DNA of 32,543 nucleotides from Alkalicoccus daliensis. GTDB lineage: Bacteria; Bacillota; Bacilli; Bacillales; Salisediminibacteriaceae. The stretch is taken from contig NZ_FNIL01000017.1 of the NCBI RefSeq assembly GCF_900103955.1, forward strand, positions 1-32,543, in the 5' to 3' direction. Positions 1 to 32,543 of this stretch are shown piece by piece (position 1 is the first letter of the stretch; each line of letters begins with the position of its first letter). The notes beneath the pieces are model-generated. The model did no database searches and was not told the origin of the DNA. It was given only the letters and a program-made list of their open reading frames with translations. The position numbers and the translations under genes are program-made.

Positions 1-77
1 TTTCTTATAGAAGTTGCAAAAGGAAGCCCATCTTATTGCATACGATAACTTAAAAATATCAAAGATTGCTCAGGTAA

Positions 78-114
78 TAAAAAAAGCGCTGCTCGTGTTG
101 TATAAACAGCGCTT
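78..114 (-). terminator. terminator-like hairpin, minus strand
   Basis: AAGCGCTG (84-91) pairs perfectly with CAGCGCTT (107-114). Read on the minus strand the stem is followed by a run of seven T. It closely resembles the hairpin at 1111-1141, including a similar loop (CTCGTGTT...), so it may be the terminator of a minus-strand operon lost from this spot or a duplicated 3' end. No gene that would need it lies between it and the next hairpin. Confidence 0.5.
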
Positions 115-186
115 CGGATTATTAAGAAAGTATTTATTGTATAAGTATATACTTCTATCTACGGAGGCAGGGAAGATACCTTAACT

Positions 187-430
187 TTTAGCTACCTTGA
201 AAATAAAAGTTCCGCTAAAAAGAAGTAATACTGCTGCTTCACTTTCGGAGCGGCTTACCCAAGGGCTTGTTCTCGACTAATTTTGACGGAAAGAACGTCC
301 GCCAAAATGGATTCTCCAACTGCGCTGGTGCGTCCTCTCCTTCGTTCCACAGCCGTATTAATTTTCATACTTCATGGTGCAAAAATTTTGCATGAATGTC
401 TCTGTTAAAGACTGGGGCTCTTACGTGAAT
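187..430 (-). repeat. class 1 structured repeat, long copy (core 227-359)
   Basis: Read on the minus strand, the core starts and ends with near-complementary termini (9 of 10 positions, 227-236 with 350-359). It contains a central hairpin, ATTTTGGCGG / CCGTCAAAAT, paired throughout with one G-U wobble. The conserved blocks TGGAGAATCC, ATTAGTCGAGAACAAGCC and CCGAAAGTGAAGCAG are shared with the copies at 12601, 22986 and 26131. The inner helix arm on the 5' side is deleted. Similarity to the region 8385-8570 continues outside the core on both sides, so the repeated unit is longer than the hairpin. Confidence 0.75.
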
Positions 431-613
431 AAAGTGATTTTACTTTTTGGTTATTAATTTCCAGTTATTCTTGTGCTCAAAAAGCCGTGAGTAAAGGTTT
501 GAACAGCTAAAGTTATTTGGTTAAATTTAGAAAATTTGTTAAATAAACCTTACTTGCACTAGGTGTGCGTAAGAGCCAAGACTGGTGTTGATATAAGAAA
601 GGCACGCCTGCGG
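431..613. other. intergenic stretch without recognised feature
   Basis: AT-rich sequence with no open reading frame preceded by a ribosome binding site, no hairpin with a T-run and no clear repeat copy. Confidence 0.5.
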
Positions 614-955
614 CTCCTTTTTCCGCAGGCGTCTTGAAAAATCACCTTGGCTTCGTTTTTTAGAGAGAAGAAAATAGGAAAGAAACAGTCCCTTTCTTTT
701 GTTTTACATAGTAAGAACGAAGCGGAAACCGGCGGACGCCTGTATTAGAGAGAGCATTGCTCCGCTCGACCAACAGTCCTCTTCACAAAGAACGTGAAGA
801 GGACTTTAAGATCATTTGGTCGGCTGCGCAAATGCTTCCGGCGGTGAAAGTTCACACCGCCTGTGGAAGAAGGAGGTCGGAAGATCCCGGAAGACGTCAG
901 TCTGAGGAAGCTGGACATCTCCTCCACGGCAGGTCAGTTGCAGCGAAGTTTTCTA
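614..955 (+). repeat. class 2 structured repeat; left arm of long inverted repeat
   Basis: This region matches 7041-7311 in inverted orientation: positions 711-955 align with the reverse complement of 7041-7253 over almost the whole length, and 614-634 is an exact 21-base inverted match to 7291-7311. Inside are a perfect 12-bp hairpin (775-786 with 794-805) and a class 2 hairpin in which GCCTGTGGA (859-867) pairs with TCCACGGC (923-930) around the motifs GGAAGATC and GAAGCTG. Short open frames here (for example 757-975) are judged non-coding because the repeat explains the sequence and they lack ribosome binding sites. Confidence 0.75.
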
Positions 956-1006
956 ATACCAACAATGAACATTAACAGAGCTCAACTTTTAAGCAGAGAA
1001 TAAAAA

Positions 1007-1062
1007 AAATAGCTGAAGACGGGTCGTCAAGCTTCCGCTGGAAAGCAGAGGAGAACCCATAT
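1007..1062 (+). repeat. class 1 repeat remnant (3' half)
   Basis: The blocks AATAGCTGAAGACGGGTCG, CAAGCTTCCGC and AAAGCAGAGGAGAA match the 3' half of the copy at 18798-18933. The 5' half is absent, so this is a truncated copy. Confidence 0.6.
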
Positions 1063-1107
1063 AGGAAACATCATAATAAATACGAAAATGATAACTTTAT
1101 AAACAGT

Positions 1108-1145
1108 TTAAAACGCTGCTCGTGTTATACGAACAGCGTTTTTAT
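1108..1145 (-). terminator. terminator of the beta-glucoside operon
   Basis: AAACGCTG (1111-1118) pairs with CAGCGTTT (1134-1141). The stem sits 19 bp past the end of the beta-glucosidase gene. Both strands have short T-rich tails, so it could act in both directions. Confidence 0.6.
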
Positions 1146-7040: not shown

Positions 7041-7311
7041 GAGAGAACTTTCGCTGCCACTGACCTGCAGTGGAGGAGATCTTCCCAGCTCGTGCTTCCT
7101 AAGACTGTGTGGACTTTCACCCTCGAAAGCATTGGTGCAGCCGATCAAATGGTCGTGAAGTTCTCTTCACGTTTTATGTGCAGAGAAATGTGGGGTGAGT
7201 GGAGCAATGCTCTCTCTAAAAAAGACGTCCTCCGGTTTTCGCTTCGTTCTTTCCTTTGCGAAACAATAGAAAATGAGAACAAGGCGGTGCAGACGCCTGC
7301 GGAAAAAGGAG
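7041..7311 (-). repeat. class 2 repeat; right arm of long inverted repeat
   Basis: This is the inverted counterpart of 614-955. Its class 2 hairpin is partly deleted, and the internal hairpin has changed sequence (GTGAAG / CTTCAC instead of the 12-bp stem of the left arm). The open frame 7092-7367 crosses the repeat, has no ribosome binding site and is considered non-coding. Confidence 0.7.
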
Positions 7312-8565: not shown

Positions 8566-8835
8566 GCTGAGCCAATTTCATAATTCCATTTCCAAAGAGA
8601 ATTAACGAACATTTATTAATATTATACATTTAATGTTCGTTTTTTATTAAGGGTTCCGAAGTGGCAGACGGTGACTCCCAGAGGATCAGCGCAGGCTGAA
8701 GATCCAATAGGACGAAGGTTTTTATCGTCCTATTTAGCTGAAGACAAGCCCTCGGGAAAGCATCCGTCTACAACGCAGGAACCTTCTATTATTCGTATTA
8801 AATCATCTGATTTTGTATTATGAAATCGGCTCAGC
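8566..8835 (+). repeat. 270-bp element with 18-bp terminal inverted repeats, containing a class 1 copy
   Basis: GCTGAGCC-ATTTCATAA at 8566-8583 is repeated inverted at 8818-8835 (17 of 18 positions). Between them lie an AT-rich hairpin (8604-8641) and a complete class 1 element (about 8649-8785). That element has termini GGTTCC / GGAACC, helix AGACGG / CCGTCT, a bulged helix TCCC(A)GAGG (8676-8684) / CCTCGGGA (8750-8757), and a perfect 10-bp central hairpin AATAGGACGA / TCGTCCTATT. No protein is encoded inside. Confidence 0.7.
8604..8646 (+). terminator. terminator-like AT-rich hairpin downstream of the deaminase gene
   Basis: AACGAACATT (8604-8613) pairs with AATGTTCGTT (8632-8641) around an 18-base AT-rich loop and is followed by a T-run. 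It is the first T-tailed hairpin after the deaminase gene, though it lies inside the repeat. Confidence 0.45.
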
Positions 8836-12520: not shown

Positions 12521-12600
12521 CTGCTCAACAGAAAAATTTACTTTATGTTGATAAAGAATGATACATAAGAATATCGACCCCACGAATGATAAAACTTACC

Positions 12601-12734
12601 ATTGCTGCAGAACGAAGGAGAGGACACCTAAAGGATGAGCGCAGCCTGAGAATCATTTCGAAGAAGCGGAGCGACGAAGAATTAGGTCGAAGACAAGCCT
12701 TCGAGCAGTCCTTCACCGAAAGCAGCGCAGCAAT
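12601..12734 (+). repeat. class 1 structured repeat
   Basis: Complete copy. The termini ATTGCTGC (12601-12608) and GCAGCAAT (12727-12734) pair perfectly. The next helix is GAAGGA / TCCTTC, where the copies at 22986 and 26131 have GAAGGC / GCCTTC, a compensating change. The inner helices are weaker here (AAGG / CCTT; ATTTCG / CG-AAT). It lies in the divergent gap between the cardiolipin synthase gene and fadF, about 170 bp upstream of the fadF operator. Confidence 0.75.
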
Positions 12735-12907
12735 ATAAGCTGTTCTATTTCAAAAGTCGTTTTTCATGAGAGTGCCAGGCAGGTGCTGTGGAAAGCGCGG
12801 GGACATCATGCAGACCCTTTTCTTCTGTTGAAAATACCTTTATAGTAAGAGATAAGAAATTAAAATACCTAAAAATCTCTCTAAAAGAAAAAACAAAAAA
12901 TAATTTA

Positions 12908-18486: not shown

Positions 18487-18602
18487 CAACGCTAATAATT
18501 ATATTGATTATTTAAAAGGGAAGCAAGCACTTGTTAAAAAGGCATTATGCATTTTTCTGAGGCAGCTGAAAAACGATATTTTTATTTATAAATATACAGC
18601 AG

Positions 18603-18735
18603 CATGCTTTCGCCTTTCGCGGCACGCTTTCCGGGCGGGCCGGCCTCAGCTAATTTCTTCCTTCATTCGGCGGAAGAAATGGATCTTCTGCTCGTCCTGA
18701 TTCGCCCCGGAGTCGACCGCTGCGGCTGCAGCGTC
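18603..18735 (-). repeat. class 1 structured repeat (minus)
   Basis: Read on the minus strand: a bulged helix TCCGGG(G)CG / CGCCCGGA, conserved GAAGATCC, a perfect 9-bp central hairpin ATTTCTTCC / GGAAGAAAT, then TTAGCTGAGG. It is arranged head to head with the copy at 18798-18933. The outer termini are weak. Confidence 0.75.
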
Positions 18736-18797
18736 AGAAAAAGTAATATTACTTTTAAAAAAAGTCCTGCCATATCGGTCTTTCTGTTAAAAAAACG

Positions 18798-18933
18798 GCT
18801 TTTCTCCGGAGCGTCCGGCGGTGACGTCTGTGGGATTTAAGCGAAGTCTGAAGATCAATTTTCTTGTCTGCGGACAGGGGAATTAGCTGAAGGCGGGTCG
18901 GCAAGCTTCCGCCGGCAAGCGCAGGAGAAAAGC
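18798..18933 (+). repeat. class 1 structured repeat (plus)
   Basis: The most regular copy. Termini GCTTTTCTCC (18798-18807) / GGAGAAAAGC (18924-18933) are perfect over 10 bp, the next helix is CCGGCGG / CCGCCGG, and the central hairpin AATTTTCTTGTC / GACAGGGGAATT pairs at all 12 positions only if G-U wobbles are allowed. The motifs TGAAGATC and TTAGCTGAAGG flank the hairpin. Confidence 0.8.
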
Positions 18934-19208
18934 TAATCACGAAAAGCGAATAAAAATAAGCTATTTACCACTTTTTCAGCAGCCCCTTTTTTCTTGCGGG
19001 TTTTTTAAGGAAAATGGCAGACATGAAACGAATTTTGTTTTACAATAGAATAATGAAAGCGCTTTAATTTAAAATCTCTGATTTTTGAAAAAGACTGTCT
19101 TGCTTTTTAAATCTCGCTTGGGAAAAGAGATGCTGTAGTTTCACGAAGTGAGGAGATACCATTATTTCTTCCTCTTAAATAAAAAGATATTCCGCAGGGG
19201 CAAGGTGT

Positions 19209-19303
19209 TATTTCAAGACGCCTGTGGAAAAAGAAAGTTTGAAGATCACCCCGGCGTACTCCCGGGGAAGCTGAAAGCTTTCTCCACGGCAAGCGAAGAA
19301 ATA
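19209..19303 (+). repeat. class 2 structured repeat
   Basis: Four nested helices: TATTTC (19209-19214) / GAAATA (19298-19303), GCCTGTGGA (19220-19228) / TCCACGGC (19283-19290, one bulge), AGAAAG / CTTTCT, and the central hairpin CCCCGG / CCGGGG. The central hairpin is bordered by GAAGATC and AAGCTGAA, the same inner motif as class 1. The rest of 18934-19443 has no supported gene. Confidence 0.7.
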
Positions 19304-19443
19304 GAAACCGCAGACACTGCATTACCGTATCCTAAAATGATTTTTTCAAATAAATGGATAATCAACAGGCGTGATTTTATACCTGGCAGAACTATTGCAG
19401 CAAATGCAGCCGAAAATCAGATAGTCACTTCCTGGGGAGGCTT

Positions 19444-19495
19444 TGAGCGAGCGTTCATTCACAACTCACGACAAAAGTGAACGAGCATTCACTCA
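19444..19495. promoter_or_regulatory. two FadR-like boxes upstream of the thiolase operon
   Basis: TGAGCGAGCGTTCATTCA (19444-19461) and TGAACGAGCATTCACTCA (19478-19495) each match 14 of 18 positions of the fadF box at 12908 and lie 34 bp apart. A possible promoter (TTGAAA 19611, TATATT 19633, 16-bp spacer) is much closer to the gene, so the true start relative to these boxes is uncertain. Confidence 0.6.
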
Positions 19496-19661
19496 GAAAG
19501 CAGAAAAGCTGTTCTATCCGGGAAGTCTTTATAAAAAATCCTTTCCTCGATGCAGACTTTTATTTTAGCAAGCGATAATTCCAAGGGAGAATTTGTGAAA
19601 GTTTAATTCTTTGAAAGCTTGAAACTCAAAAATATATTTTATTACAAGGAGGAACAATAAT

Positions 19662-20846
19662 ATGAATAAAACAGTAATCGTTGGCGGAGCAAGAACACCG
19701 GTAGGGAAATTAGGAGGTGCCCTTTCGGGATTTACAGCTGCGCAGCTGGGCGGGAAGGCAATTACAGCCGCGCTGGAACGAAGCAGGACTTCCCCGGAAA
19801 ATGTAGATCATGTCATTATGGGGTCCGTCCTGCAGGGCGGGCAGGGGCAGCTCCCTTCCCGGCAGGCAATGCATGAAGCAGGCATTCCGTGGGAGACAGA
19901 AACGGAAACAATCAATAAAGTCTGCGCTTCAGGAATGCGCAGCGTCACGCTTGCAGATATCTTAATCCGGGCAGGGGAATATCAAACTGTCGTCGCAGGC
20001 GGCATGGAATCCATGAGCCAGGCGCCGTTTTTCGTAAAAGGAGCAAGGTTCGGCTTTAAAATGGGAGAACAGAAATTTCATGACATGATGGTGCACGACG
20101 GACTGACCTGTACCTTTACCGGAGTGCACATGGGCAGCTATGGAAATAAAACAGCAGACGAATTCAAGCTCACCCGCGAAAAGCAGGATGAATGGTCCTA
20201 CCGGAGCCATCAGCGTGCAACCGCAGCAGCAGAAGCAGGGAAAACAGAGGAATTAATTCCTGTAGAAGTTCCGCAGCGTAAGGGGGACCCGCTGCTCGTG
20301 GAGCATGATGAATCTCCACGAAAGGATACCACCGTCGAGCGGCTCGCGAAGCTGAAGCCCGTTTTTGGAAAAGACGGCTCGATCACAGCAGGAAATGCCC
20401 CCGGAGTAAATGACGGTGCGGCGGCAATGGTGCTCATGTCGGAGGAAAGCGCAAAGGAAAAAGGCCTCGAGCCGCTTGCTGTTATCGCAGGACATACGCA
20501 GATTGCGGTAGAGCCGGAGAGATTTCCCCAGACGCCGGGTCTTGTCATTAATAAGCTGTTGGAGAAAACAGGACGTAACCTGGAAGATATCGATTTATTT
20601 GAAATAAACGAAGCTTTTGCTGCAGTGTCTCTTGCCAGCGGGGAAATTGCAGGCATTGATCCGGAGAAAGTAAATGTAAACGGTGGGGCTGTGGCAATCG
20701 GCCATCCGATCGGCGCGAGCGGCGCAAGAATTATTTTAACGCTTGCATACGAATTAAAAAGACGCGGCGGCGGACTTGGAATTGCAGCAATATGCAGCGG
20801 CGGCGGTCAGGGCGATGCAGTGCTGATTGAAGTATCCCCGTCCTAA
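19662..20846 (+). CDS. acetyl-CoA C-acetyltransferase (thiolase)
   Basis: A 394-residue thiolase, usual family length. The catalytic triad is visible: nucleophile Cys88 (CASGMRS), His348 (GHPIGASGAR) and Cys378 (ICSGGGQGDA), the same numbering as clostridial ThlA. It cleaves acetoacetyl-CoA to two acetyl-CoA, or condenses them. It is the first gene of the operon thiolase-hbd-acyl-CoA dehydrogenase, with AAGGAGG close to the ATG and only 15 bp to the next gene. Order and content resemble the Bacillus mmgABC set, but here FadR-like boxes precede it. A broader 3-ketoacyl-CoA thiolase role is possible. Confidence 0.95.
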   Translation: MNKTVIVGGARTPVGKLGGALSGFTAAQLGGKAITAALERSRTSPENVDHVIMGSVLQGGQGQLPSRQAMHEAGIPWETETETINKVCASGMRSVTLADILIRAGEYQTVVAGGMESMSQAPFFVKGARFGFKMGEQKFHDMMVHDGLTCTFTGVHMGSYGNKTADEFKLTREKQDEWSYRSHQRATAAAEAGKTEELIPVEVPQRKGDPLLVEHDESPRKDTTVERLAKLKPVFGKDGSITAGNAPGVNDGAAAMVLMSEESAKEKGLEPLAVIAGHTQIAVEPERFPQTPGLVINKLLEKTGRNLEDIDLFEINEAFAAVSLASGEIAGIDPEKVNVNGGAVAIGHPIGASGARIILTLAYELKRRGGGLGIAAICSGGGQGDAVLIEVSPS

Positions 20847-20861
20847 AGGAGGAAAAACAAT

Positions 20862-21713
20862 ATGAAAATAGCGCAGGTAATGGTTATTGGTGCAGGACAG
20901 ATGGGTTCCGGCATAGCGCAGGTCTGTGCAGAGAATGGGTATGAAGTGTTTCTGCATGACCTGAAAGAGGAGCAGACGAAAAAAGGAATCGCAGGAATTG
21001 AAAAAAGATTGCAGCGAAACATAGAGAAAGAGCGCATTACCGAACAGGACAAAGAACAGACGATGAAAAGAATCCAGGCTTCGACGAAGTTAGAAAATGC
21101 GGGAAAGGCAGATATCATTATCGAGGCTGCTGTAGAAAACATGGAAGTGAAAAAAACCATCTTCCGGCAGCTGGATGAGCGTGCTGCAGAACATGCAATA
21201 CTCGCAACAAACACATCCTCCCTGCCGATTACGGAAATAGCTGCGGTGACCAGCCGGCCGGAACAGGTAATTGGAATGCATTTCATGAATCCCGTTCCGG
21301 TAATGAAGCTTGTCGAAGTGATCCGCGGGCTGCAGACTTCTGACGAGACGTATGAGGCAGTGGCGGACATCGCTTCTTCCCTAAAGAAAACATCGGTAGA
21401 AGTAAATGACTTTCCGGGATTCGTTTCCAACCGCATTCTGATGCCGATGATTAATGAAGCAATATATACCGTGTACGAAGGGGTAGCTTCTCCAGAGGAT
21501 GTAGATCAGGTAATGAAGCTCGGCATGAACCATCCTATGGGACCGCTGACGCTTGCTGATTTTATCGGCCTTGATACTTGTTTATACATTATGGAAACGC
21601 TGCACGAAGGATTTGGAGATGACAAATACCGTCCCTGTCCCCTGCTCCGGAAGTATGTGAAAGCAGGCTGGCTCGGAAAGAAAACAGGCCGGGGATTTTA
21701 TCAGTACAACTAA
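20862..21713 (+). CDS. hbd: 3-hydroxybutyryl-CoA dehydrogenase
   Basis: A 283-residue NAD-dependent dehydrogenase interconverting 3-hydroxybutyryl-CoA and acetoacetyl-CoA. It has an N-terminal Rossmann fold ([19 protein letters not shown], residues 9-27), the [10 protein letters not shown] segment, and the catalytic [15 protein letters not shown] motif. The C-terminal dimerisation domain follows ([33 protein letters not shown]). Length equals stand-alone Hbd/MmgB enzymes; no crotonase domain is fused. It lies 15 bp after the thiolase and 17 bp before an acyl-CoA dehydrogenase gene. Confidence 0.95.
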
Positions 21714-21730
21714 GAGAGGGTGGCATCAGG

Positions 21731-22873
21731 ATGAATCTTCACTTTACGGAAGAACAAGAAATGACAAGAAAAATGGTGCGTAAGTTCGCCGAAGAAAAAG
21801 TTGCTCCAGCTATCCCTATGATGGAGGAGCACGATGCATTTCCTGAAGAGCTCGTCCGGCAAATGGGGGAGCTCGGCCTGATGGGGATGCCGATTCCGGA
21901 AAAATACGGCGGGATGGCAATGGATTATACCTCCTATGTGATTGCGATACACGAACTCTCCAGAGTAAGCGCAGCGGTCGGTGTTATTTTATCCGTGCAC
22001 ACTTCTGTGGGAACCAATCCTATTTTATATTTCGGCACGGAAGAACAGAAGCAGCGCTTTATCCCGAAGCTTGCCTCCGGAGAATATCTGGGAGCTTTTG
22101 CGCTCTCTGAAGCAGGTGCCGGAAGTGACGTTTCCTCCATGCGCACAACCGCGGTGAAAGATGGAGATCATTATGTGCTGAATGGCTCCAAAATGTGGAT
22201 TACCAGCGGGGGCTATGCAGATACATATATTGTTTTTGCCAGAACAGGCAAAGAAGCCGGGAACCGGAATATCAGTGCTTTTATTGTGGAAAAAGACACA
22301 CCCGGTTTCACGGTGCAGCCGAAAGAAAAAAAGATGGGACTGAAAGGTTCCAGTACTACTCCTATTACCTTCGAGGACTGCAGGGTTCCCATAGAGAATA
22401 TGCTGGGAGAAGAAGGAGACGGCTTTAAAATTGCGATGGCGAATCTGGATGCCGGACGTATCGGCATCGCTGCCCAGGCGCTTGGAATTGCAGAAGGAGC
22501 GCTGGACGCAGCAACTGCCTACGCCAAAGAAAGAAAACAGTTCGGTAAACCAATTGGGCAGATGCAGGGCATCGGCTTTAAGCTGGCAGACATGGCCACC
22601 CGGGTAGAAGGAGCAAAACTGCTTACGTACCATGCAGCCGACCTTCGTACGCAGGGAGAGGCAGCAGGAAAAGAAGCGTCCATGGCGAAAATGTTTGCCT
22701 CAGACACCGCAATGGCCGCTGCAATTGAATGCGTCCAGATCCACGGCGGATACGGTTATACAGAAGATTACGCAGCAGAACGCTTCTTCAGGGACGCCAA
22801 AGTAACCCAGATATACGAAGGAACCAACGAAATACAAAGAATCGTCATCAGCAAACATCTGCTGCGAGACTGA
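21731..22873 (+). CDS. acyl-CoA dehydrogenase, short-chain type (MmgC/Bcd-like)
   Basis: A 380-residue FAD enzyme of the short-chain acyl-CoA dehydrogenase family. It has the signature ALSEAGAGSD, FAD/substrate segments ([36 protein letters not shown]) and catalytic base Glu363 in IYEGTNEIQR. It should oxidise butyryl-CoA or a branched short acyl-CoA to the enoyl-CoA, passing electrons to ETF. It closes the first tight gene group; a 308-bp gap holding a class 1 repeat follows. It is closely related to the next acyl-CoA dehydrogenase, so a duplication is likely. Confidence 0.95.
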   Translation: MNLHFTEEQEMTRKMVRKFAEEKVAPAIPMMEEHDAFPEELVRQMGELGLMGMPIPEKYGGMAMDYTSYVIAIHELSRVSAAVGVILSVHTSVGTNPILYFGTEEQKQRFIPKLASGEYLGAFALSEAGAGSDVSSMRTTAVKDGDHYVLNGSKMWITSGGYADTYIVFARTGKEAGNRNISAFIVEKDTPGFTVQPKEKKMGLKGSSTTPITFEDCRVPIENMLGEEGDGFKIAMANLDAGRIGIAAQALGIAEGALDAATAYAKERKQFGKPIGQMQGIGFKLADMATRVEGAKLLTYHAADLRTQGEAAGKEASMAKMFASDTAMAAAIECVQIHGGYGYTEDYAAERFFRDAKVTQIYEGTNEIQRIVISKHLLRD

Positions 22874-22985
22874 GTTTTATAAGTTGCTGTAAATAAACTG
22901 CTCGAGTTTTTACAGCTCGTTCGAAACATGTATTGAATTAATTTTAACCAAAAATAAATACAACCTCTTGGATGAGCAGGGAAGC

Positions 22986-23125
22986 ATTTACAGCTGCGGA
23001 ACGAAGGCGAGGACACCAGGAGGATTAGCGAAGTCTGAGAATCCATTTTGACGAAGCGGAGCGGAGACGAAATTAGTCGAAGACAAGCCCTCCGGTAAGC
23101 CTTCGCTGAAAGTGAAGCAGTAAAT
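22986..23125 (+). repeat. class 1 structured repeat
   Basis: Complete copy between two acyl-CoA dehydrogenase genes. Termini ATTTAC / GTAAAT, helix GAAGGC / GCCTTC, and bulged helix ACC(A)GGAGG (23015-23023) / CCTCCGGT (23089-23096). The central region contains GACGAAGCGGAGCGGAGACG with weaker pairing. It ends 56 bp before the next start codon and would be transcribed in any read-through mRNA. Confidence 0.78.
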
Positions 23126-23181
23126 AGAACTGGCCACCTTAAATATTTCATCATAAAAACCATCAAAGGAGAGAAAATAAC

Positions 23182-24324
23182 ATGCAGTTTAAATTATCAG
23201 ATGAGCAGGACATGATCCGCAAAATGGTACGTGATTTTTCAGTGAAAGAAGTCGAGCCGACCGCCGCAGAACGAGATGAAGAAGAAAGATTCGACCGCGG
23301 GCTGTTTGATCAGATGGGAGAGCTCGGCCTTACAGGAATCCCCTGGCCGGAAGAGTACGGAGGAATCGGTGCTGACTACTTAAGCTACGTTATTGCAGTA
23401 GAAGAACTATCCCGCGTGTGTGCTTCCACCGGAGTAACCCTTTCTGCACACACTTCCCTTGCTGGCTGGCCGGTGTACACTTTCGGCACGGAAGAACAGA
23501 AGCAGAAATTCCTGCGTCCAATGGCCGAAGGAAAACTGCTGGGAGCCTACTGCTTATCTGAGCCGGGATCCGGCAGTGACGCTGCTGCCATGAAAACAAC
23601 GGCGAAAAAAGACGGAGATGACTATATCCTGAACGGATCCAAAGTATGGATTACCAACGGGGGAGCGGCGGATCTGTATATTATGTTTGCCCTGACTGAT
23701 CCAGAGAAAAAACATAAAGGCTGCACCGCTTTTATTTTAGAAAAAGGAATGGAAGGCTTTTCGATGGGCAAGAAAGAAAAGAAGCTCGGAATCCGTTCCT
23801 CTCCTACGCTGGAAGTCATTATGGACAACGTACGCGTACCGGCCGCCAACCGTCTCGGAGAAGAAGGTGAAGGCTTTAAAATCGCGATGATGACGCTTGA
23901 TGGCGGAAGAAACGGAATCGCGGCGCAGGCAGTAGGGATTGCGCAGGGAGCGCTTGATCATGCAGTTGCCTATGCCAAAGAAAGAAAGCAGTTCGGCAAG
24001 CCGATCGGACAGATGCAGGGAATCGGCTTTAAGCTGGCAGATATGGCGACCAAAATTGAAGCTTCCCGGCTGCTTACCTACCAGGCAGCCTGGAGAGAGT
24101 CAGAAGGTGTCCCTTACGGAAAGGCATCCGCTATGTCAAAGCTTTTTGCTGGAGACACAGCTATGGAAGTGACGGTAGAAGCCGTACAGGTGCACGGAGG
24201 CTATGGCTATACGAAGGACTATCCGGTGGAAAGATATATGCGAGATGCAAAAATTACGCAGATTTATGAAGGGACGAATGAAGTGCAGCGGCTCGTAATT
24301 TCAAAAATGCTGCTGGCAGACTAG
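23182..24324 (+). CDS. acdA: acyl-CoA dehydrogenase (AcdA-like)
   Basis: A 380-residue paralogue of the preceding enzyme with the same length. Signatures are [33 protein letters not shown] and [21 protein letters not shown], with catalytic Glu363 in [10 protein letters not shown]. The Thr/Ala and Leu differences around the substrate pocket suggest a different acyl chain preference, for example isobutyryl-CoA versus butyryl-CoA, but the sequence does not decide this. In B. subtilis acdA sits next to rpoE and fadF. It starts a second tight group with meaB and the TetR gene (11 and 4 bp gaps). AAAGGAGAG precedes the start. Confidence 0.93.
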
Positions 24325-24335
24325 GGGGGATAAGG

Positions 24336-25262
24336 ATGGATCAGCAGCTGATAGATGCCTTGCTTCAAGGACAGGAACGCGCCGTCGGAAAAGCGATATC
24401 GATCGTGGAAAATCGTGCGCTTGCGCAGAGGGATCTGATGAAGCAGATACATCCTTATACAGGAAAAGCACAGGTGATCGGCATTACAGGATCGCCGGGT
24501 GCCGGGAAAAGTTCCCTCGTAAATCATCTGCTGAAACACTGGCGCAGAAAAAAAGAAAAAGTTGCAGTCCTTGCGGTCGACCCGACGAGCCCGTTTTCAG
24601 GGGGCGCCCTGCTCGGGGACCGTATCCGTATGCACGATCACGATGCGGATAAAGGAGTATTTATCCGGAGCATGGGAACCCGGGGCAGTTTGGGAGGTCT
24701 TTCCGAAGCCTGTCAGGACAGCGTGCGCCTGCTTGATGCAGCGGGCTACGACAGGATTATTATTGAAACAGTAGGAGTCGGCCAATCAGAGCTTGATATT
24801 ATGAAAACCGCGGACACAGTAGCACTCGTGCTCTATCCCTCCGGCGGAGATATTATTCAGGCATTTAAAGCAGGAATTATGGAAATTGCGGACATCTTTA
24901 TTATAAATAAAGCAGATCTTCCGGGCGTGACGCAGCTGCGTGCAGAACTGGAAGATTTACTTCATATTTCTGCAGCGCCGGAGCACCGGAAAGTAGTGGA
25001 GACGGTCTCCACCACAGGAGAAGGAACGGAAGATGCTGTTGAAGCACTTCATACACATCATCAATACCTTGAATCTTCCGGCGAAAAACAGCAGCGGCGC
25101 AGAAGGCAGCTTGATTCCGAAGTGAAGCGGCGCCTCACAGAAAAGTTTCATGCGGCTGTTGCTCCTTTATTGGAAGAAACGCTCCAGCAAATGGAGAATG
25201 ACGACCCGTATGAGCTTGCAGAAATAATTTACGAAACGTACCGGAAGAACGAAAGGGAGTGA
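24336..25262 (+). CDS. meaB: MeaB-family GTPase, acyl-CoA mutase chaperone
   Basis: A 308-residue SIMIBI-class GTPase of the MeaB/ArgK family. It has Walker A GSPGAGKSS (Gly52-Ser60), [19 protein letters not shown] (switch/base region), ETVGVGQSE (Walker B/switch II) and NKAD (base recognition). Family members load, gate and repair the B12 cofactor of methylmalonyl-CoA type mutases. It lies between acdA and a TetR gene, just upstream of icmF, which already has its own fused GTPase domain. Its client is therefore not obvious: it may serve IcmF or a separate mutase elsewhere in the genome. Confidence 0.93.
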   Translation: MDQQLIDALLQGQERAVGKAISIVENRALAQRDLMKQIHPYTGKAQVIGITGSPGAGKSSLVNHLLKHWRRKKEKVAVLAVDPTSPFSGGALLGDRIRMHDHDADKGVFIRSMGTRGSLGGLSEACQDSVRLLDAAGYDRIIIETVGVGQSELDIMKTADTVALVLYPSGGDIIQAFKAGIMEIADIFIINKADLPGVTQLRAELEDLLHISAAPEHRKVVETVSTTGEGTEDAVEALHTHHQYLESSGEKQQRRRRQLDSEVKRRLTEKFHAAVAPLLEETLQQMENDDPYELAEIIYETYRKNERE

Positions 25263-25266
25263 TGAC

Positions 25267-25902
25267 TTGGAGAAAAAAGAAGTTCCTTCCCTGGTAAAAG
25301 ATCAGCGGCTCATTTTGAAAAGGCGTGCCCAGATTGTAAAATCAGCGGTACAGCTATTTAATGAAAAAGGCTATCACAAAGCAACCACCCGCGAACTGGC
25401 TAAGGCTTCAGGATTCAGCATTGGTACACTGTACGAATATATTGGCTCGAAAGAAGATATTCTCTATCTCGTCTGCGACTCAGTATACGACGAAGTGATG
25501 AGCAAATGGGAAAAACTGCTCAACAGCAGGCTGAACGGATTGGAACGGCTCAAACAGGTGATTGAGGCATACTTCCGCGTGGTCAATGATTTACAGGACG
25601 AAGTGCTTGTCATGTATCAGGAGTCAAAGTCCCTCTCCGACGAAGCACTCACGTATGTGCTTGAAAAGGAAATGAAAATGAAAGAAATGTTTGAAGCCGA
25701 GCTTACACGTGCCCGGTCAGAAAATGTACTTACACTCGACGACAGAGAAATCTCCCTGGCAGCACACCAGATCCTCGTCGTGGGGCAGATGTGGACCTTC
25801 CGCCGCTGGGCCGTACAGCGGGAATACAATATAGAAGAATACATTACTTCTCAGCTCCGGCAGCTCCTCTACGGCTTCAAAGTCACTGCCGCAGACAGCT
25901 AA
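25267..25902 (+). CDS. TetR family transcriptional regulator
   Basis: A 211-residue TetR-type regulator. Its helix-turn-helix lies at about residues 35-65 (KATTRELAKASGFSIGTLYEYIGSKEDILYL). The start is TTG, with AAGGGAG seven bases upstream, and only 4 bp separate it from meaB, so it is co-transcribed with acdA and meaB. It probably controls branched-chain/short-chain acyl-CoA degradation and may bind an acyl-CoA in its C-terminal domain. It does not look like a direct FadR equivalent in its recognition helix region, so it is unclear whether it binds the FadR-like boxes at 12908, 19444 and 19478. Confidence 0.92.
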   Translation: MEKKEVPSLVKDQRLILKRRAQIVKSAVQLFNEKGYHKATTRELAKASGFSIGTLYEYIGSKEDILYLVCDSVYDEVMSKWEKLLNSRLNGLERLKQVIEAYFRVVNDLQDEVLVMYQESKSLSDEALTYVLEKEMKMKEMFEAELTRARSENVLTLDDREISLAAHQILVVGQMWTFRRWAVQREYNIEEYITSQLRQLLYGFKVTAADS

Positions 25903-26005
25903 AAATATATAGAGAAGAATCTTCCATAGAAGAGCTGCGTGAATGCATACGATTTCCCTGGAAGAAGATTAACAATGTTTAGGTTTAGCGGTATAGCAAA
26001 ATACA

Positions 26006-26070
26006 CAATGAAAACCAATACTGATGCGACCCGAATACGAAAACATTCGGTTGGGAATTCTTTCTGAGGG
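26006..26070 (+). other. weak hairpin in the tetR-icmF gap
   Basis: CCGAAT pairs with ATTCGG around an 8-base loop, but no T-run follows, so I do not call it a terminator. No promoter or cobalamin riboswitch pattern is recognisable in 25903-26130. Confidence 0.3.
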
Positions 26071-26130
26071 AACTTCGTTACAGTAAATTATTCCCTTGTG
26101 CAGAATACTGAAGTACAGGTCTTGGAAATT

Positions 26131-26268
26131 TTTACTGCTGTGAAATGAAGGCGAGGACGCTCGGAGGATCAGCGCAGTCGGAGAATCCTTTTCGAAAGCG
26201 CGAAGCGAAAGAGAAATTAGTCGAAGACAAGCCCTCGAGCAAGCCTTCGCCGAAAGTGGAGCAGCAAA
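26131..26268 (+). repeat. class 1 structured repeat
   Basis: Complete copy 64 bp before icmF. Termini TTTACTGCT / AGCAGCAAA (one mismatch), helix GAAGGC / GCCTTC, bulged helix GCTCG(G)AGG (26159-26167) / CCTCGAGC (26233-26240), and a central hairpin TTTTCG / CGAAAG. The blocks GAGAATCC, AATTAGTCGAAGACAAGCC and CCGAAAGTGGAGCAG are shared with other copies. Confidence 0.8.
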
Positions 26269-26332
26269 TGAAACTCTTTTTCTAAATAGCTTTAATATGT
26301 AGATTTTCCATTAATAAAAAGGAGGGGTCTCT

Positions 26333-30276: not shown

Positions 30277-30313
30277 TTGACTTTTACCCGGGACGCCGAT
30301 AGAATCATCTTTG
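30277..30313 (+). promoter_or_regulatory. pyrG promoter with GGGC transcript start
   Basis: TTGACT (30277-30282) and TAGAAT (30300-30305) are separated by 17 bp. The first G of GGGCTCC (30313) lies eight bases past the -10, the expected start. Gram-positive pyrG transcripts starting GGGC undergo repeated G addition when CTP is low, as established in B. subtilis. Confidence 0.75.
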
Positions 30314-30352
30314 GGCTCCATAAAAACGGAGTAGCATCTTGAGCGAAATTAC

Positions 30353-30386
30353 GCGCCCCCTCTTAATAAAAGAGGGGGCGCTTTTA
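30353..30386 (+). terminator. pyrG leader attenuator (rpoE/pyrG intergenic terminator)
   Basis: GCGCCCCCTCTT (30353-30364) pairs perfectly with 30370-30381 around a 5-base loop and is followed by TTTT. The 5' arm has a C/U-rich tract (CCCCCUCUU) that could instead pair with slippage-added G residues at the 5' end of the transcript, preventing termination when CTP is scarce. It would also end rpoE transcripts. Confidence 0.85.
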
Positions 30387-30548
30387 CTTTTTGTGAGCAC
30401 ATTGTTTGAGAAGAGATCTTACGTATTAAAGGCTGTGTTACAGGTGGTTGTTTACAATTACAGAAGACGCCGCAGCGGCAGTCACTGAAAACAAGCACGC
30501 AGATATAACCGGACTTTATAAAGAATCTTTCAAGCAGGAGACACTCAC

Positions 30549-32416: not shown

Positions 32417-32543
32417 TGCCCGCTTATTTTACTGTGGCGCCCGCTATTTTACTCCGAACCGGCTATGCTGACATGAAAACCGTCTATACTTTACTCCGAA
32501 CCGGCTATACTAACATCCAAATCAGCTATACTGACATAAAATC
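32417..32543. repeat. 21-bp tandem repeat array, running off the window
   Basis: Six successive 21-bp units begin at 32417, 32438, 32459, 32480, 32501 and 32522. Units 3 and 5 read CCGGCTATgCTgACATgaAAA and CCGGCTATaCTaACATccAAA (case marks differences); others alternate with a CCCGCTATTTTACTCCGAA form. No gene is evident and the array continues past the right edge. Confidence 0.8.

Follow-up and report, generated by a model that had tools for sequence, protein, structure and literature searches.

Insertion sequences (ISs) of the IS1182 family are DDE transposons. For IS1272 and TnSha1, which belong to this family, the excerpts of the published reports available to us describe insertion into inverted repeats, several of them confirmed terminators (PMC4923244), with the hairpin partly deleted or replaced and no target duplication (PMC4923244, PMC5678879); duplication of a whole stem-loop is drawn there solely as a possible pathway (PMC5678879), and the same article cites a review for palindromic targets in the family. 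Here, we analyzed a stretch of 32,543 nt from Alkalicoccus daliensis (assembly GCF_900103955.1, contig NZ_FNIL01000017.1, positions 1-32,543; hereafter the window), in which a first reading of the DNA, the original prediction, had noted seven dispersed copies of a "class 1 element" and described them as a structured RNA family. This element is not a free-standing RNA family; it is probably a structured module, ~140 nt long, that belongs to mobile DNA and is carried as a passenger by IS1182-family ISs and by short non-autonomous derivatives of the miniature inverted-repeat transposable element (MITE) kind.

Terminator targeting in the IS1182 family is already published (IS1272, with deletion), as far as the excerpts of those reports go. 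Within the open-access literature searched, the duplication of a whole hairpin by an IS1182 clade and its MITEs, the widespread module and its link to the small RNA tsr24 look new; nothing on the module was returned by phrase or sequence-string searches covering dispersed repeats of Bacillus, MITEs, terminators and IS1182. BOX elements of Streptococcus pneumoniae, compared by their description in the available part of the report (PMC3049150), are also modular, folded, high-copy, partly transcribed repeats that are probably IS-mobilized, but they reside in another host, their proposed mover is ISSpn2, and no terminator duplication is described for them in that part. ISPpu9, to judge from a partial description (PMC8450116), is a different IS, inserted in REP hairpin repeats and carrying two small RNAs beside its transposase gene.

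A module that keeps its fold

Two covariance models were used to locate copies: R1, built on 25 copies aligned with MAFFT (the window supplied seven and the same genome a further 18), and R2, with a wider training set. The places of the seven listed copies, within a few bases, and their strands were confirmed, with R2 scores of 42.8-106.1 bits. The models also found an eighth module and a diverged one, both absent from the original list. The copies at 8644, 12595 and 26128 were outside the R2 training set, their nearest training rows being 79-92% identical; the 227 copy was inside it through L120, on a contig (C1) with an identical overlap with the window, as was the 19188-19323 copy through L066. 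The modules of the window are as follows.

227..362, minus strand: structured module, copy 1 of the original prediction, inner helix mostly lost (R1 72.0 bits, R2 72.3 bits)
831..953, plus strand: diverged module with the same fold as the others (R2 34.8 bits, E 7.5e-9; R1 16.8 bits, E 0.01)
8644..8788, plus strand: structured module, copy 2 (R2 106.1 bits)
12595..12737, plus strand: structured module, copy 3, decayed (R2 42.8 bits)
18598..18743, minus strand: left module of a composite element, copy 4 (R2 94.4 bits)
18794..18934, plus strand: right module of the same composite, copy 5 (R1 122.7 bits)
19188..19323, plus strand: eighth module (R1 49.6 bits, E 2.2e-12; R2 86.7 bits)
22984..23127, plus strand: structured module, copy 6, with an acyl-CoA dehydrogenase-like gene downstream (R2 102 bits)
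26128..26271, plus strand: structured module, copy 7, with icmF downstream (R2 82.9 bits)

The seven listed copies and the eighth share one fold of ~140 nt, a single long imperfect hairpin made of an outer helix, a helix of 7-9 bp, a bulged inner helix, a short helix and a variable central hairpin. The blocks between the helices are unpaired, yet they are conserved across copies. Covariation was tested on the 25-copy MAFFT alignment against the fold of a single copy, L015, so that some lean is expected in the test. Paired cells amounted to 85.3% (shuffled mean 74.9%), changes on both sides were found in 27 of 45 pairs (15.2 in shuffles), and the covariation score was 0.303 (0.141 in shuffles). 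None of the 500 shuffles reached the observed value on any of five measures, and sliding the partner columns by 1-3 positions lowered the pairing to 36-51%. The proposal of a structured family with compensatory changes is supported by these values: the sequence of the module drifts, but its fold persists. Folding of single copies was only moderately better than that of shuffles (z -1.55 to -4.79).

It had also been stated that the arms still pair in every copy. The quoted arms exist and the pairing is strong overall, but several copies have weak helices. In the MAFFT alignment, the inner helix keeps only two of its eight pairs in the 227 copy and four of eight in both the 12601 and the 18798 copies, the central hairpin keeps five of 11 pairs in the 12601 copy and four of 11 in the 26131 copy, and the outer helix retains just one or two of six pairs in five of the seven window copies. 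The outer ends pair in other registers when the copies are folded singly.

With the module at 18794-18934 as a BLAST query, 43 matches were obtained in the A. daliensis genome. The covariance-model search that the original prediction had proposed went further, with at least 114 R1 matches at E <= 0.01 in this genome (150 of 1328 first-look candidates scored, and at least one copy counted twice because contig C1 overlaps the window), and related genomes matched as well. The overlap itself spans window positions 1-549, which are identical to contig C1 over 549 bases and represent either an assembly overlap or a real duplication; L081 and L082 form a second identical pair that may likewise be a contig overlap.

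Type A elements and a duplicated terminator-like hairpin

A comparison of the flanks of own-genome loci, which took in 100 of the 105 loci L047-L151, showed that many module copies sit within a longer unit, here called type A. This unit consists of a left end starting with AGGCTGTTGAAAAAGT, a minus-strand module, a spacer of mostly ~50 bp, a plus-strand module and a right end finishing with TTTCTTACTTTATAAACACTCTG; the ends are imperfect (AGGCTGTTGAAAAAGT / CAGAGTGTTTATAAAGT). In the stretches taken from this genome, 31 elements had both ends and measured 323-660 bp, apart from one of 1122 bp, while right ends numbered 44, of which 13 lacked a left partner.

In most cases, a terminator-like hairpin that differs by locus stands past the right end, and it is often repeated before the left end. 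A hairpin with a stem score of at least 8 lay within 4 nt of the right end in 30 of the 44 cases, as against 32 of 2000 positions drawn at random from these loci. A matching hairpin flanked both ends of 20 of the 31 two-ended elements, and these duplicated hairpins scored 17-34 where the maximum in 930 mismatched left-right pairings was 14. In several diverged pairs, the stem is still formed by both copies. Two elements with type A ends were found in the window, the first with its pair of hairpins.

81..114, no strand: left copy of a duplicated terminator-like hairpin, the target duplication of the 115-1109 element (83-114 recurs at 1110-1141, 84% identical)
115..1109, plus strand: old composite in which other elements are nested, its ends (CGGATTATTAAGAAAGT... 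/ ...CTTTATAAACAGTTT) being of type A (1007-1105 resembles type A right parts)
1110..1143, no strand: right copy of the duplicated hairpin, paired with 81..114
18560..18984, plus strand: type A composite with ends AGGCAGCTGAAAAACG ... CACTTTTTCAGCAGCC and two inverted modules, copies 4 and 5 (18548-18929 aligns to the composite L004, 70%)

The copies at 18603 (minus) and 18798 (plus), which had been listed as separate RNA-like units, are the two ends of one mobile element. Five own-genome loci (L149, L147, L146, L150 and L123) carry a long form of the right module with up to ~125 extra nt, which replace part of the central hairpin and form further hairpins, one of them around CATCTCGTATGCTTTTTCCGAGATG; this long form recalls BOX expansions.

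IS1182-family transposons as the probable mover

Of the 39 other genomes searched, 32 had matches to the IS1182-family transposase model NF033551. Exact duplicated hairpins surround the IS1182 genes at L201, L203, L204 and L206, and the ends of L201 and L204 (CAGGCTGTTGAGAAA / CAGATTGTCGAGAAA) are similar, not identical, to those of type A. A search with the Evansella halocellulosilytica transposase as query gave at least 69 named loci, of which 37 with a near full-length gene and enough flank were picked. A duplicated hairpin was found at 30 of these 37 loci, in genomes that include Bacillaceae, Paenibacillus, Photorhabdus, Gilvimarinus and Marinomonas; by the same criterion, 10 of 600 mismatched flank pairs had one. 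The gammaproteobacterial IS1182s L240, L271, L275 and L276 (Gilvimarinus, Marinomonas, Photorhabdus) have exact hairpin copies on either side.

Judged by their sequences, intact IS1182s of one clade stand between hairpin copies as type A elements do. We label this clade ISBspe1-like, a name that appears on an annotated plasmid of Alkalihalophilus pseudofirmus OF4. Its members share with type A similar ends and the same whole-hairpin duplication; they differ in that type A elements have no transposase and in that only seven of the 37 named clade members carry the module. The contrast with IS1272 lies at the target: the hairpin is partly deleted or replaced there, as far as the excerpts of the reports describe it, whereas here 20 of the 31 two-ended type A elements have it on both sides, as do 30 of 37 IS1182 loci.

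The module itself was found by R1 within IS1182s at ten relatives' loci, at 23.8-97.4 bits (L201, L204, L205, L208, L210, L213, L215, L217, L218 and L219). In eight of these, it lies upstream of the transposase gene and antisense to it, in the stretch that separates the gene from the end of the element. R2 placed it in 11 of 18 relatives' IS1182 loci, ten of which belonged to its own training set, with 10 of 13 in the bacterial family of A. daliensis and one of five outside. The seven positive named loci are from Evansella, Neobacillus and Thalassobacillus. Four Neobacillus loci (L239, L243, L287 and L293) have an inverted module at each end around the gene or its remains, a layout equal to a type A element plus a transposase gene.

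Module similarity does not follow that of the transposases. L201 and L204 have transposases 85% identical and modules 57% identical, while for L201 and L215 the values are 28% and 73%; over 45 pairs, which share ten loci and hence are not independent, the Spearman correlation was 0.11 (p 0.47). The module therefore seems to have been exchanged between IS1182 lineages. It also seems not to be required for their target habit, as duplicated hairpins occur without it (see below).

Other elements that carry the module

Two further elements of the window hold modules of the original list.

191..408, minus strand: type B element nested in the 115-1109 element, holding copy 1 (flanks like those of most of 23 type B copies)
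8569..8832, plus strand: type C element holding copy 2, with inverted ends GAGCCAATTTCATAAT / ATTATGAAATCGGCTC

The view of the copies as isolated units fails here too, since the 8649 copy is part of another element, and the element around the 227 copy is itself nested in a third, whose terminator-like hairpin is duplicated. Type C ends resemble those of the IS1182 loci L216-L218 (TGAATCAATTTCATAAT). Type B and D ends read TTAACAGAGACAC.. / ..TTTCAAGGTAG; for the type D copies at 12601, 22986 and 26131, no clear ends were seen.

Nine junctions of an IS3-like element (L083, L085, L073, L115, L152, L153, L154, L155 and L156, all near contig ends of the A. daliensis genome with one side each visible) fit a single module site (CGGCAAG / CAAGCTTCCG), in either orientation. 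One end sequence, TGCACCCCAGAAGTTAGAG, is a 5′ end with a helix-turn-helix open reading frame (ORF), and the other, TGACCCCTAAAAGTTAGAG, a 3′ end with an integrase-core ORF; they are likely the two ends of one IS.

Spread of the module and its overlap with tsr24

R1 matched 30 of 40 genomes including A. daliensis; among the others, all 23 of its own family matched, as did six of 16 from other families of the order, weakly. Under stricter filters, R2 matched 24 of 121 genomes of the class, again including A. daliensis. Two Neobacillus genomes and Bacillus sp. OV166 gave at least 40-41 matches each (40 candidates scored). A large set of unnamed Bacilli repeats would be explained in this way as one module tied to IS1182 elements.

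The original prediction recognized no named family. This stands for the window, which has no Rfam match at gathering thresholds, its two sub-threshold matches being near pyrG and distant from the copies. It does not hold more widely, since IS1182-family transposons and their non-autonomous derivatives contain the module, and since in relatives it overlaps tsr24 (RF02577), a small RNA of Staphylococcus aureus. RF02577 does not match the window copies, and its model of 238 nt is longer than the ~140-nt module; in IS1182 loci and other relatives, it overlaps the module below its cut-off. A direct search with RF02577 gave 61 matches over four of 13 genomes, with two genomes above the cut-off. Conversely, R2 matched all ten RF02577 loci fetched, on the same strand, eight of them being under the tsr24 cut-off. 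Read by eye, the best tsr24 match, L323 (82.8 bits, cut-off 50), is flanked by two copies of a hairpin, and L325 resembles an element lacking a transposase, with ends like those of IS1182s, a single module and a terminator-like hairpin in duplicate. A literature search for tsr24 returned only unrelated papers, and the family is known here from its Rfam entry; an orphan staphylococcal small RNA family would thereby be linked to mobile DNA.

Two other identities were considered and dropped. A tRNA-derived element found no support, as there is no tRNA in the window, and a hammerhead-like reading of CTGAAGA was given up because many copies have GAGAATC at that position.

Favored explanation and its alternatives

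The IS1182-like ends, the shared target habit and the presence of the module in some IS1182s suggest that type A elements are IS1182-type MITEs sharing the structured module. Their non-autonomous nature fits with the own-genome loci L047-L076, none of which, out of 30, has an IS1182 piece. Several observations weigh against this explanation. Hairpin duplication is absent in 11 of the 31 two-ended type A elements, and none was seen beside the 18560-18984 composite. The A. daliensis genome has no NF033551 or PF13751 match, and ten ORFs, found beside unpaired ends or on small contigs, proved to be ordinary genes, so no autonomous partner was found. Type B and D ends match, by eye, no IS1182 end examined. 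At L217 and L218, the module follows the transposase gene on the same strand. R2 found it in only seven of 37 named IS1182 loci, and 24 of the 30 module-free ones still show a duplicated hairpin, which implies that the module is not needed for hairpin duplication.

If the IS1182 explanation holds, some IS1182-type elements would insert at the terminator of a gene and leave a copy of the hairpin on each side, by a mechanism that may be the whole stem-loop duplication pathway, in the form drawn in the available part of PMC5678879. With a terminator left on both sides of the landed transposon, the stop signal of the neighboring gene would survive. The proposed pathway can be tested directly on the many duplicated hairpins, which are specific to their loci. 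Modules standing in front of genes would be moved or left-over copies.

What the module does within these elements is less sure. In IS1182s, it may give a structured transcript that damps or insulates transposase expression, a reading that leans on the Rfam entry for tsr24 and on the position of the module, mostly between the end and the transposase on the opposite strand. On the module strand of the MAFFT alignment, G-U cells outnumbered A-C cells (64 vs 37; 19 pairs vs 8, p 0.052), and so they did in the model-fitted alignments A3 (243 vs 118) and A4 (31 vs 20), which lean that way by construction of the fit. This excess is only suggestive of an RNA strand. Together with the conserved unpaired blocks and tsr24, it favors RNA, while the inverted module pairs at element ends and the nine IS3-like insertions favor a DNA role; between the two, we infer that an RNA acting on transposase expression is somewhat more likely. 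The original prediction had concluded that the structure implies selection or replication based on it, which is possible, but template switching can match the arms as well.

The strongest alternative is that any role of the module is that of a DNA cruciform serving as a binding or landing site, its arms being changed by quasi-palindrome template switching and not by selection on an RNA. Type A elements and some Neobacillus IS1182s contain inverted pairs of the module, as expected of end-recognition DNA, and the weakness of the G-U excess in the MAFFT alignment leaves room for it. ISs are known to insert into REP hairpins, and the nine IS3-like insertions, consistent with one module site, are likened to these. 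Pure repair of the arms, however, does not predict conserved unpaired blocks between the helices, the module strand has more G-U than A-C in all three alignments (the fitted ones leaning so), and Rfam lists tsr24 as an RNA on that strand. We regard the cruciform as possible, without expecting it.

A broader idea is that one structured RNA module, exchanged among divergent IS1182 lineages and MITEs across many Bacilli families, acts in hairpin-directed transposition or its control. We hold this to be unlikely; if true, there would be DDE transposons with an RNA partner, and tsr24 would be one visible member of a widespread transposon RNA. In another reading, a structured RNA would take part in IS1182 transposition itself, for example by helping to find hairpin targets, like the guide RNAs of other ISs. 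The IS110 bridge RNA (PMC11208160), to judge from the available part of its description, is a structured RNA from a non-coding IS end, as the module might be, and the module is structured and covarying and, in several divergent subgroups of IS1182, neighbors the transposase. Unlike in IS110, there is no evidence of a guide here; the targets are alike in shape and not in sequence, and many IS1182s keep their target habit without the module, which makes such a role very improbable.

Hardly more can be said for a host cis-regulatory or trans-acting RNA family serving adjacent genes: the copies at 22984-23127 and 26128-26271 are directly upstream of catabolic genes and a module also lies upstream of icmF in a genome of another genus (G014; L345, 2765-2900), but no R1 match was found around icmF in any of seven same-genus genomes, a terminator-like hairpin abuts most type A right ends, and the window lacks an Rfam match at gathering, so that we give this reading very little weight. 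Given its absence around icmF in those seven genomes, the 26128 copy was either gained by this lineage or lost from the other ones. The IS1182 passenger explanation remains the one we favor.

Minor observations in the window

A second pair of inverted-repeat elements was seen at 713-886 / 7078-7251 (81% complementary) and 917-947 / 7050-7080 (94%). The core of this pair resembles the module fold, and R2 scores only 831-953 there. In front of pyrG, at 30313-30392, the PyrG leader model matches below threshold (46.5 bits, with a cut-off of 65), which probably marks the ordinary leader. After pyrG, positions 32445-32528 hold two tandem repeats of 42 nt that are 81% identical.

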